In this document: piece by piece, positions 4,056-60,903 of the stretch
How the letters are laid out: the number at the start of each line of letters is the position of its first letter
Position numbering within the stretch: the stretch's first letter is position 1
Source: Hericium rajendrae
Taxonomy: Eukaryota; Basidiomycota; Agaricomycetes; Russulales; Hericiaceae
Assembly (NCBI GenBank): GCA_033439255.1
Contig: CM065890.1
Span: forward strand, 1,426,001-1,490,000
Direction: 5' to 3'
Length of the DNA stretch: 64,000 bases
Made by a program: the position numbers and the translations under genes
Notes under the pieces: model-generated
What the model was told of the DNA's origin: nothing
The model's database searches: none
The model's input: only the letters and a program-made list of their open reading frames with translations

Positions 4056-5667
4056 ATGCCTGCTGAGCGTACAAGAAGTGCGAAGAAGGAGGAGGGAAGT
4101 GGTGAGTGTAGTGTATTGAATGGATGATACCAAACCACTCATATTCTACAGGTATCCAACTTACTTGGACTGCGCCTATCGAACCCATGGCACAGTCTGG
4201 CATTGTATTCGCCCCCAACGTGACGCCCGGGACATTCAACGAGCCAAGCCCACCTGCTGAGCCCAAGATCCTCCCCTCCCTGTTCCCAGACGGCACGGAG
4301 GATCCCAGCCCGCGCCGTCCTGGCCACGGGAAGAAGAAGCCGGAAGACCACATCCCTCGTCCCCCGAACGCCTTCATCCTCTTCCGCTCCTCGTTCATCA
4401 AGAGCCAGCACGTCACCTCCGAGGTCGAGACGAACCACAGCACGCTGTCCAAGATCATCGGCATCACCTGGCAGAACATGCCGCACGCGGAGCGCGAGTT
4501 CTGGCACACCAAGGCGCGCGTCGCGCAGGCCGAGCACAAGAAGAAGTGGCCCGACTACGCCTTCCGCCCGCACCACATGCGCGGCAAGGGCGGCGGCACC
4601 GAGAAGCGCAAGGTGCGGGAGGTGGGCCCGAAGGACCCCAAGCGCTGCCAGAAGATCGCCGACCTGCTCGTCGAGGGCAAGAAGGGCGCCGACCTCGAGG
4701 CCGCCATACAGGAGTTCGATCGCCACCACGTCGCACCCGTCATCACGCGCTTCGAGACGCCGCTCACCGCGAGGATGTTCCGCCGGTCGTCGTCCGAGCC
4801 CGCGCCAGACACTGAACCATCTGCGCCTGCGTTCTTGCGCCCGGCCCCCAAGTCGTCTCGCCGTCTGCGTGCTGTCAGCACGCAGCCCTCGTTGTGTAAG
4901 AGGCGGCCTGAGGTGAAGCCAGAGGCGCCTTCCAGCTCGCCCGAGACGACGCCATCGCAGGACGACGACGTCGACGACTCAATGCCCCCTCTTGTTCTTC
5001 CGCCGATGTCCCTGGACATGGACTTCACGTTCACTGCAAAGCAATACCCTTCATTTGTCAGTATTTCTCGCCTTCAACCTCTTGTATACTTGGCTTATCT
5101 CTGTGTGATAGGATCTCAACACGTTCGTTTTCAGCGACTCCCCCGCGCCCGCGCAATACATCGATACCTGCGATCCCCTAACTCCAATATCGCCGACGGA
5201 GATCGATTCTCCCTTCGCCCCGACAGAGTTCAGAGTCCATCCCATTCGCAGCACGCCCCTACGCGACACCATCTCCCTCGTTCTCCGGCTCGTTCTATGG
5301 CGAATGGCACGACTCGTCGTTCTCCGACATGTCCACCGCGTCGCAGGACTACTCGACACAGGGCTCATCGTTCGATCTGGCAGCATGCAAGCCGTATGAC
5401 ATGCAGCCCATCTTTGAGCACAACGCATACAACGGCGGCGATATGCTGCAGCCGCCCTATCCGATGGGACTCGCGGACGCGGGCAACCTTCCTCCCTTCG
5501 CGAATCACACCCCGGAGTCGACGTCGTTCCCCTCATACGATGGGCTCTGTCCTCCCGCGCCGCCTTCGAGAGGCCGCTTCGCATACCCTACCCACAGATC
5601 CGACGCTCACCTGGATGTCAGCCTCTCGGACTACCTCGCGCAACCCATTCCGAATTACACAATCTGA
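4056..5667 (+). CDS. HMG-box transcription factor (MATA_HMG-like), paralog 1
   Basis: Predicted nuclear DNA-binding protein. Exon 1 is 4056-4101 (MPAERTRSAKKEEGSG); a 50-nt GT-AG intron (4102-4151) joins it in frame to the main exon. The HMG box begins with IPRPPNAFILFRSSF, continues ETNHSTLSKIIG, then W..MP..ER.FW and A..EHKKKWPDYAFRP, which is the complete helix pattern of the family. A basic, Ser/Pro-rich middle and an acidic DDDVDDSMPP patch follow. A second intron ends at 5111 (TAG). The following exon (DLNTFVFSDSPAPAQYIDT) reads well to about 5225, and then the plausible protein continues in the +1 frame (SGSFYGEWHDSSFSDMSTAS) to the stop at 5665-5667. That shift is either a consensus indel or an intron I could not place. 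HMG-box gene 2 at 33.6-35.5 kb is its paralog, sharing APNVTP near the N terminus. The target genes cannot be told from sequence. Confidence 0.85.
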
Positions 5668-8209
5668 CGACAGGTTCCTGTTTCGTGGATGTTCTTCTCT
5701 TGTTGTTGATGTAAAACTTGTTCTCCCGAGGGAAGTGCGGAGGGTTACGAAGCGGATTCAACCTTGTATTCAGTATTGTGTCCTTTCCGGACTCTGTTTC
5801 CCATCACTGTATCATTCGTTCACACCCTACCTTCGCGCCCGCCATGCGAGCTAATGCGGAGGCCATTTGTGCCCGTACCCTTGTTTATTTGTAAATAGTA
5901 TTAGCGACACCTTTGTAGATATCATTTCATACCTGTCTCCAATCCAGCACACATGTCGACATTTGCGAGGGACGGCGAGGCAACGTGGGAAGGCGAAGAA
6001 AACGTTCGGCGTCAGCTGACGAATGATGGAAAAAAAATAAGGTTGTTTCCCGCCTGTCCTCGTGTGGCCAGACATGATAAGCAGGGAATGGAAGTTCCAG
6101 AACCCGAAAGTGTACACGTGCGGGCGCATTTCCGCATCCAATGGCCAAAAAGATGCTCGAACCTTGCGCCGCGCACGTAATAATTCGATGAAGGCGCGCA
6201 TGGACGTTCCCGACATTGTACAGATTAGATGCAAGTCGGAGGGCGGAGGCGGCTGATGGCCGACGGCTGAAAGGGATCAGGGCAAGTACCTGTGGCGATG
6301 GAGAGCCGCGGTAGTGACGCAAACGAGGGAAGCGTTGAGAAGATCCGGTAGGACACAATGTTGCCACAGTTGCCACAGTGTCGCCACAACGTCGCCGACT
6401 GACAGGAAGACACGACGATCCAAAAAGTTAACGGAATATCCAAGCCGGAGGACCGCCGCGTGGAAATCATATTTGCGACTTCCATGAGAAAATCGCAAAT
6501 CGGGGGTCGCAATGGGCCGAGAAACAAAGTTTGCCACGCGAAAAGCAAAGTTTGCGGACATGGGCCACGATTCCTGTAAGGCCGCGGCGGCCGACGCCGG
6601 CGCAGAAGATCCGAAAGAAGGCAACTGCGGCGGAAAAAATTCGGGAAGTCTGCTGACACTTTTGACAACGTCATGCCTGAAAACAGAGTAATGATGGGCT
6701 TCAGATGTGGCGCTAAGGGCAGGGTCTACGTCAAAGAACAGCCATCGATATGAGGAGGGCACGCGGCGACGGACGTACGGGCGACACAACCGACCCTTCC
6801 ACTTCGAGGTAAGGGTACGCCTAGCGTGGCTGTCATGAGCGACGAAACCGAGATTAAATTCCGTGAGGAAGCGACGGGGCATCTGGGCCGTGGTGGATGC
6901 ATCCTCGAGCTGATCGGCCAATGACCAAGAAAGTGCTGGGGATGCAGAGAATGACAATACGACAGATGTAACGGAGCCGCGTTTGCGGAGAGTTTGACCG
7001 CGTGTCGCTCCTGATAGAAAGCGAGATGCGATATCCAAAGGCGAGGGTGGGTAGATAATCGTGTCGTAATGACCTAGGACCAGCCGGAAGTCGTGGGTCG
7101 CCTGTATGCAAAGATCCGTTTGTCGAGGAGTAAGGAAGTCCACATAAACAAAATTAAGAATACTTTGAATTTGCTTCCGGTCTTTTCGGTAAGCGCCAAG
7201 AGAGGAAGCGCTTGACGCTGGAGCTCATAGCGGGAGAGGGCCACAAAAATGAGCCACCCTCGGTGGGTGAGGGGGGAATGATGGACACAACTTGGATAGC
7301 ACCGTGTAATTTATATGGATCGCAGAGGCTCTGCATTTTAGGGATCGGACCCCTGACGGGGAGACAAAGGAGAAGCAAGACTCGGAGGAACGCGTGATTG
7401 TGGCTCGCATCCCAATTTGGCAAAGATGGTATGTTGCGGCGCTGGCGCTTCTGATCTCGTAGCCTCCTGTTGATGGCTGGCGGTCCCATCCTTATTGTTC
7501 AAAAAATGAGAGTGAGACATCTTCTCTTGTTTACAAAATGTGTATCAAAAAACTTAGCGTGCAGAACGGCAGAATATATGCTATGTGCCTGTTAGCGTAT
7601 GCTTCATTAGTGAAACGTGGAAAGAAGATGGCAGGAGGAACGCATACAGCCTCCATCGAACTCGCCGGGAATGGACAGCCCCTAAGCTGTCTCTCACGAT
7701 AATGACTCCTTGCATCACTTGTTCCATGGACGATGGACGATGGCCAGAAAAAGAGAACAAAAGGCGACAGCCACCGACATTTCCACTCATGAAGAGTGAT
7801 TCGGCGCCTTTAGGCAGCTTTAATATCTCAAATGAAATCAGTGAACAGTGCACGGTGGGGACATTCTTGCAGACTCACCGAACAGAAATCGAATTCGGAC
7901 CCAAAAGCAGAGGGACGAGCGCCGAGCGTTTGATGTCAAAATCCATCATATGGCGTATCGACGGGAATATTCCCGCCCGCTTCATAGCAGACTTCACTGC
8001 ATCAGCTGGAATGTTTTCCGTCGTCGTTGGGGTTTTGTCGTGCGTTCCAGTTGTGCATGGCGTCAAGAATGGAGGAAACAAACATGAGTTGGGGACGTCG
8101 CCGCCGCATTGCCGCCACGCGTCGGGCGTCGCGACGTGTCACAAGATCACGTGCTTTCAATCACGTCACGCTAAAATCCCAAAAAAGCTAAAACATATTC
8201 CTATTTCCT
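5668..8209. other. intergenic region, no supported gene
   Basis: The 3' end of the HMG gene and then about 2.4 kb with no recognisable protein. The longest open frames (minus strand 6277-7143, plus strand 7585-8274) have no domain, no splice-site logic and an unlikely composition. The region ends at the inverted-repeat element at 8210. Confidence 0.45.
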
Positions 8210-54466: not shown

Positions 54467-54474
54467 CCTCGATC
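54467..54474. repeat. 8-bp target-site duplication, left
   Basis: CCTCGATC immediately before the hAT terminal repeat; identical copy at 60896-60903. Confidence 0.88.
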
Positions 54475-54777
54475 CAGTGTTGTGACTGACCCGAGTTATA
54501 ACGGTTGTAGTCATTTCGAGGTCAATTGATATTGAATTGACCTTAATTGACCCCGGGTCATAGGGTCATTTGGGGTCAATTCATCTTTGTATCGTATTTT
54601 GGATCGTAGCTACTTGTACGGCTCTTATGACAGTATAATAGGATTCTGAGAGCCTTCTTCGGCATCGCGAAGAGGCATTGCTTGTGTACTTATCACCTTT
54701 TTATCCTCATGGTCATCAAGTGATGTCAATAGCTCATAGAACAAGGCTTCCTCCTCGTACTTCTTGACACCCTGGAA

Positions 54778-57700
54778 CTAGAACTCATCCCAGCCTGTCT
54801 CCATCGAGAAATTGAATAACTCGGCGATATCAAACAACTTTGGTTGGCCGAAGTAGAGTCGCACCTGCTGGAGATCAGCCGCAGAAGACGGAGAGGCTGT
54901 CAGTCAACTCACTCGACACGGTGTCCCTGCGCCGTAAGTGACATGCTCGGCAACCTTGATCCCGTGCTCGTCAAGCTCTGTGTCATCGACATCTTGGTCC
55001 TCCATGGATGCCTGTTCCTCCCACTCTCGAGCCACAACGACAAACGAGCGTGCAGACATGTCTGCGGCGGAGGCGGGAGTCTCGGATGACACCCCGGTAT
55101 CATTGCGAAGGTCAGCAGTTGTCCCTGCCGTATCTTCCTCGTCGGTCTCAGACTCAGCTCCTCCCTCCTCAATAGCTTGAACGATATCCTCCTCTTTGAT
55201 GCGACTACCCGATTCGTCCGAAATAAATGGAGCCGTGACCGCTCCTGTCGAATCGTTCCCAAAGTGACGTTTGAGCCTTGCATGCGCAGTTCCCTCGACG
55301 GCTTGTTGACGCCGAAGTTCGAGCTTCACGAAGACTATCTTGCGCAGCTTCTCGGTGTGTAGTCGATTTCGCTTCTTGGATTTAGTATCGGTGACTGTGG
55401 TAAAAAGCCGCTCTGTGTTCGTGGAGTTCGGGACAAAACTGAGAATAAGGATAGCAAGACGAGCGAGGGGGTTCTTCTTGGGAAGGAGCTTCCACATGAT
55501 GATGGGATCTGTGGTACCATCCTAGAATCCAAACGTGGTCAGCTCTGCATCTGAGAAATATGTCACTGGTATATAACACTATATTAGCTACATAGCTTTC
55601 CTAGGTCCATAGCTGTCCTCTTTTATACATAGCAGTCCATAGCAGTCAAGTAATCTATCATAGCTTGTCATAGCTGCCATAGCATAGGGCATAAGCTATC
55701 ATAGCTACTGTAGCTACCATAGCATAGAGCATAAGCTATCATAGCTATCATAGCTATCATAGGATAGGATAGCTATAGAAGCTATGTCAATTATATATGA
55801 TATGTTCATCACTATATTATATCTAGTTAGTATGATTTATATATACTCTATATCACCTCTATCAAGTATTTTGTTCCAACATATAACAGAAAATTACTAT
55901 AAACCCAGTAGTCATATCTTGAAGTCACAAACATTGAAAATTGAAAAGCATTATATATTTCATACATCTTCATTACAAAATGCTACAATAACTACAAAAA
56001 TCACTACAGAAGATAACAAATTTACAACAACTCTATAAAGCAAAAATATAAACAAAAAAAAAGTATTAGTATTAGAACATAACAAGATAAGAGAAAGAAG
56101 CCTACCAAACTAACAGAAAAGCGAAAATCTACAAGACAACTTAAAGACATTAGTGTTAGGATATAATACTGCTTACCTAGTAAGCTTACAAAAGTACTGT
56201 AACCAAGTACGAAGGCATGAGCATCAGGCATGAGAGACTAAGAATAAACACATACCTTAGCAGAGATGGAAACGACGAGGAAGACAGCGAGCAACGATGA
56301 CGACGAGAGAGCAAGTGACAACAATGAGCACACGAGCGACAACATACGAGGATGCGATAACGACGTACGAGGGTGCGACGACGACGACGAACGAGGATGC
56401 GGCGACAACAAGGATGCAGTGACGACAACGAAGATGCGACGACGAGGGTGCGGCGACGAGGGTGCGGTGACGATGACGAGGGTGCGGCGGCGACGAGGAG
56501 GAGGCGGCGACGACGACGAGGGTGCGACGACGACGACGAGGGTGCGAGGGAGCGACGACGAGGATGCGAGGGAGCGACGACAACGACGAGTGCAAATGGG
56601 GGTTTAAGAGGCAAGAGGCAACGCGCGTCGCGCGAGCCTTATATACGAATCCCGGGCGAAGCCGAGAATCGTGTCTGCCGGGCATTGCCGAACGCCGCAT
56701 CAGAGGCTAAGTCGCAGACGTGACAACTTTGACTCTGCTGTCCGGTCTTGTGTGCTAAATTATGTAGATACTCAGCTCATCGAATCCATGTGTATTACTA
56801 TTCTACGATATCTTCTTTTATTTTGTAATTTTAGGCATTTTATCCGATTTGTTGCATCGCGAGAAACTTTGATTCGCTCGTTCGGTGGCTGAAGCACCGA
56901 ACTCGCGTCGAGGCTTCTCATTTGCTTCCCTCCTCCTCCCTCACTTTCTTTGTCTCTTCCCCCTCACCTCCCTCGCCGCTTCATCTTCCCCTCTTTCGAC
57001 AGTCAAGACGGACCGGGCAGGGATTTAGTAAGCTGGGGGAGCTGTAGGTAAGTAAAAAGAATCGTTCTTTCGTGTTCATTCGTACTAACGCAGAGTGTCG
57101 CTCGTTTTCGAGCGACACTCGTTCACGCCTCCCATCACCCGTCGCACATCGCCATCGTCCGTCACCCACCGCCCTCGGCGCACTCTACCGCCTTCCACCG
57201 CCTTCTCCGCACTCGGACAACGTTGTGAGCCCCCCACGCCGCTCGAACGCTACGCGCACGGCCCCAGACGATATCAACGCGGCCCACTGCCGCCTCTGCA
57301 CACCCACAGCACCCGCGCGCACCTCCTACCTCTCATCACGGCGCCACGTCACGCGCGGGACATGTCGCAGAGTCCCGTTGCCGTGGCAACGGGACTCGAA
57401 TGTCGTCCCGCTCGCGATCCTCAAGCATCTAGTGTGCATCCCCGGCACACCGTCAGCACCTCCTCATGTCTCATGACCCGGCTCCATGCCCCGCATGCGC
57501 GCGCAAGATCTCGCGCTCGTGTCCCACGCGCCCCGCTCCCCTGCGCAATGCCCCGCGTGCGTGCCCAATGGCCTCACGCCCTCACGACGCGACCTACGCA
57601 ACGCCTCTCAGCGCACGGACACCGGGGCACGGCCCTGCATGTTCTCGATAACGTGTGCAGGGCCATGCATGGCTCCATGAATGCCCTGCCCGCGTGCTGA

Positions 57701-60610
57701 ACGCCCTGCGTTCGCCTGCAATGTCCCGCACCCGCTTATGCTCCCGCGCGCCCGTTCAACAGCCCCTGTGATGCCGTACATGTGCGCACAACATCCCTCG
57801 CGCATGTACGACAATTCACGACAACCCGCACGCGCGATCGATGACTCAGGCCCCGTTTGCACGCGCATGGCCCCGCGCGCAGCTACGCACGGTCCTGCTT
57901 GCCATGCACGGGCCATCTGCACTTGATCGGGACCTCTCCCGTGCGCCCATGCTCGTGCATGACCCACCCCGCATGCTCACACAAGACCGGGTCCCGCGCG
58001 CCAGCACCCGCGCCTATCTCTGCGCCCGTCTTACCTACCTCTACGCCCTCCGCGCCGGGATTCGCGTGCCCTGCCCTGCCTTCCACGCCCTCCTCTCGCT
58101 CCGCGCTGTGTTTGTGCCTGCACCTGCGCCCTCCACGGTGACTGTCACACCGTCCGCACCGTGTGCCGTGGGTACGTCGGCGACTGCCGCGACGACAAGG
58201 GCCACGTCATCAGCACATGAGGCTGATTCGGAATATCTAGTTCGATTAGCCTACATATGTATGTAGTAGATTTATAACAATTTAATATGATAAAATTTGA
58301 CTTGAATTTTTGGTGCTTATCTGACTTGCTGTAGAAATCATAGGGATCATAGTAGCCATAGCACACCTTATTAACCATATAACATTATGTATCTCAGACT
58401 ACAAGCTATAGAGGCTATGATAGCCCTATGAATGTCACACTGTCTGCTATAGAGGCTATGATAGCTCTTATAGCTCTACATAGCTAGATAAGCAAACTTC
58501 ATAGCTCTTATAGGTCAATGATAGCACCTATAATTTGACCTGCAGCTATATCAAATTCAAATTTCTCAGATGTGATTAGAACACATTAAGATCGGAGGTG
58601 TCACCTGCTCGGCCAATGGTTTCCTAAGCTGCTCAATAGTCCAGGCATCTTTCGAGAATATACCTTCTCTTTCACCGTAATGATAGACAGAAATCATAAA
58701 ATCTGACGGTACTTCTTCAGCCTCAAATACATGCATATAAAGGCGGCGGAGGATGCCCATCATCATGGAAATCAGGATAACGTCCGAATCGAGAAGCTGA
58801 TTATTGATGAATGGGTTGAGAAAGAAAGCGGCGATGTGGAGATCTTGGTCCGCTTTGCGCCAACGCTTCTCGATGCTTTCGAGGATTGAGGTGACGGGAT
58901 GTTCCTCTTCAGTCATGCTGCTCTCTGGATGGTCACAATCAGCCTGCCGCAAATTTGAATAGCTGTGATAGAGCTTCGCAAGCAAGAATGAGACTTGATC
59001 GCATCGAGAGTTGGCGCCTTGGGTTACATTGATGGCAATTGCAAGGGGTTCAAAGTGGGTCTTTATCCTGAAATGTATGTATGTGAGTTCACAGCGACGT
59101 TGAGGATATTATTCACAAATACTTACACGACGAGCTTCTTCCACCAGCTATCATCTTTGATCCTCGACAAGACACGTCTAGCCTTAAGCTTCTTTCTCGC
59201 TGGTGTGCCCGTCCCGAGAGCACTGATCAATTCTTGTTCGTGCTTGATAGCGGTGACTTGAAGGGCTTTTCGGAGCTTGAGGAGACGATCAAAGGAAGCG
59301 AAGTATGCCGTCCATCGTGTGATAACAGGCATGATCAAGCACCATTCTTTCCCACCGTACATCTCTCGCTGCTCCTTCTGGAATATGCCCAGCGCGTATG
59401 AATGATTGTTGAACCACTTCACAACCTCGACCGCTGAGTCGATGACCTCTGTGATTTTCGGGTTGGCACGAACATAATCACCCAGGATAAGACAGATCTG
59501 TGAGTATAATTTAACGGTCAGATATCTGATGGATTGAACCAAAAAGAATTAGATGTCATCTACCTGGTGCGCCCAACAGTCTGCGATGAGCAGATTCAGA
59601 TGCTCCCTCAGCATATCAAGCCGTGCCTTCCTCTCATCGCCTGCAGCATCACCTGCTATCCCGATGCATTTCAGCCCGATCTGCGTCATCAGATACTCGT
59701 ACTCGGCCACCATCAGAGCAAACACGTTCGCGGCAGTCTTGCGCTTCGCGGACATATCGTGAATGTTGGTGACGTGCACCTGACGAAGAACTGAATACAT
59801 GAAGGCAATAAGATGGTTCTTTGATATATCCTTGTAGCCATCACATTGCATCGTCGCATACTGATCCTTTCCACTTGCCCGTAGTTCACCCTCCATCTTA
59901 ACGACCTGGCGCGTCAAGATTTTACCAGAAAGGCTCTTGCGGTTTGGAAGCTTGGCAGCGGGAAGGTAATCCTGGAAGAGCTTTTGGACTTCTGGGTCCT
60001 GTATGGCATAGAACGCGAAGCCTGCTGATATAAATGCACGAAGGATCTGATCTTCGAAGGCCTGCTGTCGGTCACCATTGAATGGGATGCCCTTGGACAT
60101 GTAGACGGTAAACACCTTCTGGTTCTTCTGAGCGACATCACTATCTGAGCGGACACGCTTTGTAGGCCTCTTGCTATCCGACCCTCGGCTCCTCACGTCC
60201 TCAGAATCGTCGTCGGCGCCATCATCCACATTGGATTCTGCGACCTTCTTCTTGCGAGCCCTTGCCTTGATCGAGTCTGGGCAGTACTCACACTGAATGA
60301 GATGGTTGTTCATTACTGACAGCTTTCCCGCAGTTGCGTGAATTGCGTCTCGGGCTACATGTAGTATCCGCGTCAAGACGGACATCTCAATTCATGGAGC
60401 GAGTCACTTACCTTCGATAATCAACACGTTCTTGGATCGCTCGGCCTCAAGTTTCCCTTCTCGGACGGCCTGCTTCTCCTGAAGCTCGATAGTAGCGAGT
60501 TTGGCACTGGTACAATAGTTGCAGTATGCTGCCCAATGTGTGTTGTTATTTCCAAACTTTTTATCGGACTGGTAGAAGTGCTCCCAATGCCATGATTTCG
60601 GACGAACCAT
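54778..60610 (-). CDS. hAT transposase
   Basis: Six exons: 60412-60610, 59564-60354, 59127-59497, 58605-59067, 54913-55521 and 54778-54867, all with GT-AG introns and consistent phase, giving 840 residues. The N terminus (MVRPKSWHWEHFYQSDKKFG, CNYC..., then MNNHLIQCEYC) is a BED-type zinc finger. The middle, with DGYKDISKNHLIAFMYSVLR, CIGIAGDAAGDERKA and LLIADCWAHQ, then VITRWTAYFASFDRLLKLR, is the RNase H-like catalytic core with its helical insertion. The fifth exon begins DGTTDPIIMWKLLPKKNPLA and contains FVPNSTNTERLFTTVTDTKS, the hAT dimerisation region. An acidic tail precedes QVRLYFGQPKLFDIAELFNF and the stop at 54778. No frameshift. The fourth intron is 3083 bp because another element sits in it. 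After the stop the same frame stays open to 54625. Confidence 0.9.
55585..55790. repeat. left subterminal array of CATAGCT / AGCTATCATAGCT words
   Basis: More than a dozen ATAGCT or AGCTAT hexamers within 200 bp, many as ATCATAGCTATCATAGCT. Inverse-complement words (AGCTATGATAGC) fill the opposite end of the element. Confidence 0.8.
56270..56600. repeat. low-complexity GACGACGAGGGTGCG region
   Basis: Imperfect trinucleotide-based array (GACGAC, GAGGGTGCG, GCGACGACG). It opens all frames artificially, giving Asp/Arg-rich or Ser/Arg/Val-rich translations that should not be taken as genes. Confidence 0.75.
56640..58250. other. GC-rich, CpG-rich interior of the nested element
   Basis: Contrasts sharply with the AT-rich flanks. 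Contains a TATA-like TTATATACG near 56638, a pyrimidine-rich tract at 56920-57000 and many words of the CGCGCATG and CCGCGC type. Long frames are open because of composition; no protein family recognised. Could be a captured promoter/5' gene fragment. Confidence 0.4.
58330..58545. repeat. right subterminal array of AGCTATG / CATAGCT words
   Basis: Includes CTATAGAGGCTATGATAGC twice (near 58410 and 58450) and several CATAGCTCTTATAG words; the counterpart of the array at 55585-55790. Confidence 0.75.
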
Positions 60611-60895
60611 CAAGAAGCTGTTATGTAGAAGTTCGAGGTCAGAAGTTCGAAAAGAAGAAAGACAGGCCCGCAAGATGGCCATAAAGAAGACTGCATTGCA
60701 TCTGATGTGTCTACGTCTTACTATCGATGGACAGAGTAACGAAGATGGCCGATAAATCATGCCGGTGATGGCGCGGGTTCCAGATCCACCGAAGCGACTG
60801 ACCCCTCTGACCCCGCCCTGAGCAATTGACTGACCAACCGACCTCAATTGACCCAGTCAGGTCAATTGCGTTTTGACCGGTCAGTCCCAACACTG

Positions 60896-60903
60896 CCTCG
60901 ATC
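60896..60903. repeat. 8-bp target-site duplication, right
   Basis: CCTCGATC immediately after the right hAT terminal repeat; identical to 54467-54474. Confidence 0.88.

Follow-up and report, generated by a model that had tools for sequence, protein, structure and literature searches.

A probable non-autonomous, Plavaka-like transposon family in Hericium rajendrae, with one copy inserted precisely in an intron of a hAT element

Introduction

The closest described transposons are those of the Plavaka type. According to PMC12730594, elements of the CMCT clade have CA..TG termini and target duplications of 2–5 bp, and PlavakaB elements have the termini 5'-CATCA..TGATG-3' with a duplication of 2 or 3 bp. 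The family analysed here, found in the genome of Hericium rajendrae, resembles them by its CATC-type termini (variant CATCAGAGAAAT in L035 and L064), its 2-bp duplication and its Plavaka-rich genome, in which at least 132 pieces matched Plavaka profiles. It differs in that its commonest terminus starts with CATCT (CATCTGAGAAAT), whereas the published one starts with CATCA, a form found here in a minority of cases (CATCAGAGAAAT, 29 exact places in the genome), and in that no transposase-bearing relative with these ends was found among the termini listed. The duplication agrees with PlavakaB and the termini come close, but no link to a transposase was found among the members and candidates examined; we therefore say that the family works like a PlavakaB-type non-autonomous element, and not that it is one.

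Other systems share some of these features. Non-autonomous CACTA/EnSpm elements likewise have short termini starting with CA, subterminal repeat arrays and short duplications, whereas the present family has no CACTA termini, duplicates 2 bp and has a non-coding module conserved in its interior. MITEs and Ds-like deletion derivatives are also non-autonomous and served by an enzyme in trans, but the members found here are about 3 kb long and of a single architecture, with a centre conserved across subfamilies that are only ~50–57% identical. Finally, the non-autonomous hAT families of Marasmius oreades are also fungal and, according to PMC9674265, match a partner by their termini; they are of the hAT type, whereas the present family has other termini and a 2-bp duplication. 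Among the papers listed on non-autonomous CACTA or Plavaka elements, none matched the present family by title or abstract opening.

Results

Two empty sites define the ends of the nested element

The window, that is the whole 64,000-nucleotide stretch analysed, corresponds to C13:1426001-1490000 in a genome of 46.77 Mb and 19 contigs. A sequence-only reading of the window had placed an element of 3025 bp, enclosed by 12-bp inverted termini, in the intron of a hAT transposase gene (Table 1). CAGTG-type termini and an 8-bp target duplication, as hAT elements require, were present, and the host is a complete hAT element. Its C-terminal frame matched the hAT dimerisation region (PF05699) just below the cut-off of 21.4 (20.4 bits, E=4.6e-4).

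With 588 bp of host flank as the query, three places matched, the window and two others, and both of the others run on through the insertion junction. Identity to the joined window flanks was 98.3% for the first empty site (L038, C6:1213229; 2576 aligned columns, 41 mismatches) and 95.0% for the second (L039, C1:4783859; 2585 aligned columns). In both comparisons a 2-base gap fell exactly at the junction, the window having one extra TG, and cutting out 55548-58572 together with one TG restores the sequence of both empty paralogues. The target duplication is therefore TG, and 55548-58572 is the inserted element. The breakpoints were the same in the two empty copies, which fixes exactly the ends that had been read from the window.

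It had also been proposed that removal of the element turns the 3083-bp intron into one of 58 nt, with intact splice sites and correct phase. The splice sites and the phase were confirmed, and removal does leave 58 nt, but two of these are the duplicated TG, so that the native intron measures 56 nt. The copy was inserted between the donor and the branch point of this intron, and both the exons and the reading frame across their junction are undamaged. The hAT copies had probably already split when the insertion took place, because L038 is empty and only 1.6% diverged; the alternative would be a precise loss from both other hAT copies.

Table 1. Coordinates of features in the window and of motifs shared by the family.
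Feature	Position	Strand	Remarks
hAT target duplication, left	54467..54474		8 bp, CCTCGATC
Host hAT element	54475..60895	-	6421 bp with insert, 3396 bp without; termini CAGTGTTG..CAACACTG; match to hAT dimerisation region just below cut-off
Host intron holding the element	55522..58604	-	3083 bp; GT..AG, junction CAG/GAT, phase 0
Target site duplication, left copy	55546..55547		TG; from empty sites
Nested non-autonomous transposon (probable)	55548..58572	+	3025 bp; two empty sites, family of copies
Terminal inverted repeat, left	55548..55559	+	12 bp, CATCTGAGAAAT
Left subterminal array	55590..55786		CATAGCT
GAC-rich low-complexity block	56262..56600		poorly conserved in family
Central island	56600..57130		conserved among 13 aligned members
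TATATAAGG box	56637..56645	-	CTTATATA unchanged in 13/13 aligned members; putative promoter role
Pyrimidine-rich tract, then TCAA	56911..57005	+	13/13 aligned members; promoter-like, putative role
Splice-donor motif AG/GTAAGT	57048..57053	+	AGGTRAGT in 13/13 aligned members
Branch-point-like CTAAC	57085..57089	+	CTAA in 13/13 aligned members
Stem-loop GAGTGTCGCTCG-TTTT-CGAGCGACACTC	57093..57120		perfect, 12 bp; covarying in family
AG-depleted pyrimidine-rich tract	57121..57200	+	
GC-rich fast-changing block	57150..58230		no codon periodicity in three pairs tested
Second hairpin	57370..57397		arms of 13 bp; L058 has it perfect too, through compensating changes
Right subterminal array	58345..58520		CATAGCT-type repeats, partly inverted
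Terminal inverted repeat, right	58561..58572	-	12 bp
Target site duplication, right copy	58573..58574		TG; from empty sites
hAT target duplication, right	60896..60903		8 bp, CCTCGATC

Most copies read at both ends are flanked by 2-bp duplications of variable sequence

Many further copies with these ends were present in the genome, as the sequence-only reading had led one to expect. The first 253 bp of the element gave 40 matches (best 40 of 293 candidates scored) and the last 273 bp gave 42 (best 40 of 237 candidates scored), the window being included and some places split in two in both counts. Among the matches scored, the nearest relatives of the window copy were 91% identical over the ends, so that no source copy is visible there. 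For a young insertion, the lack of a close relative is what is expected from a cut-and-paste donor; the source may also lie outside the top-scoring matches.

The terminus CATCTGAGAAAT had 250 exact occurrences in the genome, versus three for the reversed control. Terminus lists are full for C1 to C7:1.31 Mb and, further on, hold those among the T-suffixed matches listed. Between C1 and C7:1.31 Mb, the listed neighbouring termini less than 15 kb apart formed 24 facing pairs versus 4 diverging ones, and 14 of the 24 facing pairs were spaced 2.7–3.6 kb. Some family termini lie within ~1.3 kb of contig starts (C1:334, C10:1131, C11:1258 and C17:346), perhaps in subtelomeric DNA.

Both ends were read in 17 members, whose right ends are CAGATG. 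An exact 2-bp duplication flanked 14 of these 17 rows (which count L042, of composite appearance), a perfect one was absent in L042, L051 and L054, and a 3-bp duplication was found in none. Together with the empty sites, this falls within the 2 or 3 bp of PlavakaB, and the combination of CA..TG termini with a 2-bp duplication is that of the CMCT clade. Since L052 and L055 share one insertion site, the independent sites number 16, of which 13 had a matching dinucleotide, where about one was expected by chance (1 in 16 each). The duplicated dinucleotides varied (TG, AC, CA, TA, AT, TC, AA, GA, TT, GT) and were not confined to the TA of IS630/Tc1-mariner elements. The pattern CATCAGRRAAAT...ATA matched the genome once. 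A related 2.7-kb insertion, CATCAGGAAAAT..ATTTCCCTGATG, was recognised by eye in L065 (reverse, 4234-6914), with a TAT duplication relative to the empty L064.

Members without nested insertions were 2.8–3.3 kb long and had the ends, the subterminal arrays and the central 530-bp island in common. The extra length of L031, L032, L033/L034, L040 and L041 was judged to consist of nested insertions, either by comparison with shorter members or from retroelement-like frames recognised by eye. Long frames for a disordered-looking protein, alike by eye, were seen inside such insertions at L041:1645-3483 and L031:1490-2722. L042 and L044, both retained in alignment A1, hold several family ends and look composite.

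A conserved island lies between variable blocks

Alignment of 13 of the 17 members (L040-L043 left out) revealed five zones: ~700 bp conserved on the left, a variable low-complexity block, the 530-bp island, a variable GC-rich block, and ~330 bp conserved on the right. Overall, the two main groups of members were ~50–57% identical to each other. The sequence CATAGC/GCTATG occurred 12 times in the first 260 bp of the window element, five times in the last 250 bp and never in between, for an expectation of ~0.1 per end in mononucleotide shuffles. The mosaic interior reported earlier, with inverted CATAGCT arrays, AT-rich spacers, a low-complexity repeat and a GC-rich block, was recovered in all its parts, the repeat being GAC.

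The island contains promoter-like and splice-like motifs in a fixed arrangement. The splice donor was found in 13/13 aligned members, a count free of the donor-requiring pattern by which the 28 A1 modules and the 35 AG-tract modules were collected and which makes donor identity in those sets a matter of construction. In the 80 bases following the stem, the 35 modules contained 7 AG versus 43 expected from mononucleotide shuffles, and GA was common (69). After removal of 15 close-copy rows on the Helitron-like unit described below, 7 AG were counted in the 20 remaining rows versus 21.5 expected; in both sets, 0 of 500 shuffles were as low. This depletion looks like the AG-exclusion zone preceding a 3' splice site, and the whole island looks like a transcription start followed by a short exon and then by the first part of an intron, which includes the stem-loop. 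We read it as a maintained promoter/intron module, which may either derive from an autonomous ancestor's gene or still serve the element. Rfam returned one sub-threshold match only, to a viral microRNA model (E=0.44), which was taken as chance. Among the papers listed on splice motifs with stem-loops in transposons, none matched by title or abstract opening.

The stem-loop covaries and is widespread

The stem-loop begins a few bases behind the branch-like motif, and its folding energy in the window is -29.4 kcal/mol (z -4.6). In the 28 modules, 88.7% of 389 stem cells pair, a count of sequences and not of events, which related rows inflate. Both sides had changed in seven of 14 stem pairs (mean of 3.8 in shuffles, 4 of 500 of which reached seven), and the covariation score was 0.192 (shuffle mean 0.118, reached by 0 of 500; best slid control 0.109), although a DNA palindrome would covary likewise. 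Three stem pairs were unpaired in 8 to 11 of the 28 sequences. A stem with arms of at least 10 was listed in 7 of 12 members; the second hairpin, beyond the window copy and L058, was not listed in the remaining 10 of these 12.

There is a real chance that the stem-loop is a palindrome of the DNA, either bound by a protein or maintained in perfect form through hairpin-templated correction, and not an RNA structure. Covariation in palindromes can have causes at the DNA level, palindromes occur in the subterminal arrays as well, and further pair types in the stem were no more numerous than in shuffles (11 versus 11.5, with 422 of 500 shuffles as high). Its place in a fixed order, behind the splice donor and the branch motif and before the AG-depleted tract, argues against this explanation. 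More doubtfully, the island might be a selected non-coding RNA module with its own promoter, short exon and intron front, in which the stem-loop would mask the near AGs between the branch point and the AG-free tract; a spliced transcript, or use of the module as promoter or exon donor, would then aid persistence or spread of an element that relies on others for its transposase. On this reading, the module would also have spread to many loci for which no exact family terminus was listed.

Allowing up to 3 mismatches, the stem-loop had 150 occurrences in the genome versus 0 for the reversed control, a palindrome being countable on both strands (one such pair was among the matches listed). Of the 45 stem-loops listed on C1-C6, 13 lay inwards of an exact CATCTGAGAAAT or CATCAGAGAAAT terminus at a distance of up to 6 kb, and the other 32 did not; one of the 13, at C5:3098743, is outside the nearest facing terminus pair. 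At five further stem-loop places (four of the 32, and one on C16, where terminus lists are partial), inspection of 250 bp by eye revealed a GTRAG donor and CTAA[CT] in all five, and BLAST found all five homologous to the island. These five loci may represent members whose ends have diverged, or else related families. In L072, a family-like right terminus, TTTTTCAGATG, directly adjoins the splice-donor/stem-loop module, as if inserted in the island of another element.

One subfamily was multiplied by a Helitron-like carrier

Many copies had identical flanks, on both sides in L017, L019-L028, L031 and L032, on one side in L018 (right) and L033 (left), and at 7/7 of the right-end loci L010-L016, six of which are on C12. 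These flanks belong to a carrier repeat that begins with ACTTGGTGGAAGAGGG, holds the family element 150 bp inside, and ends in a small hairpin, ACGATTCTAAGGAATCGTAA. The two carrier copies compared occupy separate positions, and neither a terminal inverted repeat nor a target duplication was evident. We take the carrier unit to resemble the Helitron-like INE-1/Helentron units. Its C1 copy contains ~10 copies of a 158-bp tandem repeat. One of the tandem units contains the family element, flanked by an AA duplication, whereas 9/9 other units found in this C1 copy were empty (TCAAGATC versus filled TCAA[element]AAGATC). Carrier units ACTTGGTGG..GGAATCGTAA were observed at L060, L061, L062 and L063 (C1, C9), at different positions in Plavaka-bearing DNA.

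One subfamily was therefore multiplied as a passenger of the carrier, and its original insertion again gave a 2-bp duplication. It is improbable that the whole family spreads mainly in this manner, as a passenger of the Helitron-like unit ACTTGGTGG..GGAATCGTAA with its 158-bp repeats and not through its own ends. The many copies sharing flanks and the same AA insertion fit such a spread, but 12 independent sites besides the carrier site, window included, have other flanks and their own 2-bp duplications, and the empty sites show insertion through the ends of the element itself. As a general account, passenger spread is refuted by these independent sites.

The 3-kb members do not appear to encode a transposase

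Ten of the 25 stop-to-stop frames of at least 60 aa were compared with Pfam, and 0 families were found at E<=0.1. In the comparison listed for frames of the window, L030, L050 and L053, all frames of at least 30 aa with partners in four or more members came from L050 or L053 and matched only L050-L057. Three close pairs showed no codon periodicity, gaps in multiples of three were 4/41, and differences were mostly transitions, 65–75% of these in CpG context. The absent periodicity, the few in-frame gaps and the CpG transitions suggest that the GC-rich block probably does not code for protein and is being eroded through CpG deamination. In members without nested insertions, no sign of a conserved protein was detected, and no intact transposase gene, as in an autonomous DNA transposon, in the 3-kb members. 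Two further statements of the earlier reading, that the element has no recognisable transposase and may be non-autonomous, agree with the frames tested and with the members examined.

That the element is autonomous all the same, with a diverged or many-intron transposase hidden in its 3-kb body, is very improbable. The conserved promoter-like tract and splice donor, and the long open frames of the GC-rich block, could be seen as parts of such a gene; against it stand the confinement of the widely shared frames, among those listed, to one subfamily, the substitutions without codon periodicity, the rarity of in-frame gaps and the Pfam result. It is scarcely credible that the family is mobilised by the DDE_3-like transposase found between family termini in L043, which combines both termini with a GT duplication and a transposase-like gene, since this gene belongs to a separate 3.04-kb segment bounded by different inverted termini (TAAGATAGACGA), a 98.4% identical copy of that segment on C5 (L048) has its own ends without a surrounding family element, and the family duplications are not TA only.

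No autonomous partner was found among the listed termini, which are full for C1 to C7:1.31 Mb, and a partner may lie elsewhere. Likewise, no Plavaka transposase was found inside, or in an element sharing the ends, among the 3-kb members and the candidates examined from the termini listed. Candidates were rejected as follows. In L043, the DDE_3-like element (L043:704-3751; transposase E=2.5e-4, below cut-off) is nested. L064/L065 is a repeated segment in which a member, with its own ends and an AA duplication, adjoins a Plavaka gene. In L066, a Plavaka gene adjoins a terminal fragment of 81–103 bp, and a nested Plavaka is likelier because a CATCAGGAGTC start is found ~100 bp inside. In the 12.0 kb around a Plavaka match at C12:1369652-1381657 (1701 + 1001 bp of the ends read), the Plavaka most likely inserted later, since the 2.8-kb members L052/L055 have matching flanks. 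The 613-aa frame of L041 and its relative in L031 are oppositely oriented in the element and gave no relevant Pfam family. An ATCTGA array was observed near the Plavaka gene of L066 (reverse, about 300-1000), with 19 occurrences in 700 bp versus 0.5 in mononucleotide shuffles.

Discussion

We consider it likely that the family consists of non-autonomous cut-and-paste transposons with short inverted termini and CATAGCT arrays, moved in trans by a CMC/Plavaka-type transposase, and that the island is kept as a promoter/intron module. Direct support was obtained for the discrete ends, the precise insertion, the 2-bp duplication, the arrays at both ends and the conserved island. A CMC/Plavaka-type enzyme, supplied in trans, would bind the CATAGCT arrays and the termini and excise the element in a cut-and-paste manner, and reinsertion would proceed through a cut staggered by 2 bp, with no fixed sequence at the target.

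The usual view is that non-autonomous DNA transposons require nothing but their ends. The conserved centre found here beside scrambled blocks suggests that a functional non-coding unit can be retained inside such elements. With its 2-bp duplications and clean empty sites, the family offers a test system for Plavaka-type transposition, and the insertion in the hAT intron illustrates that one transposon can reside in another with the exons of its host unbroken.
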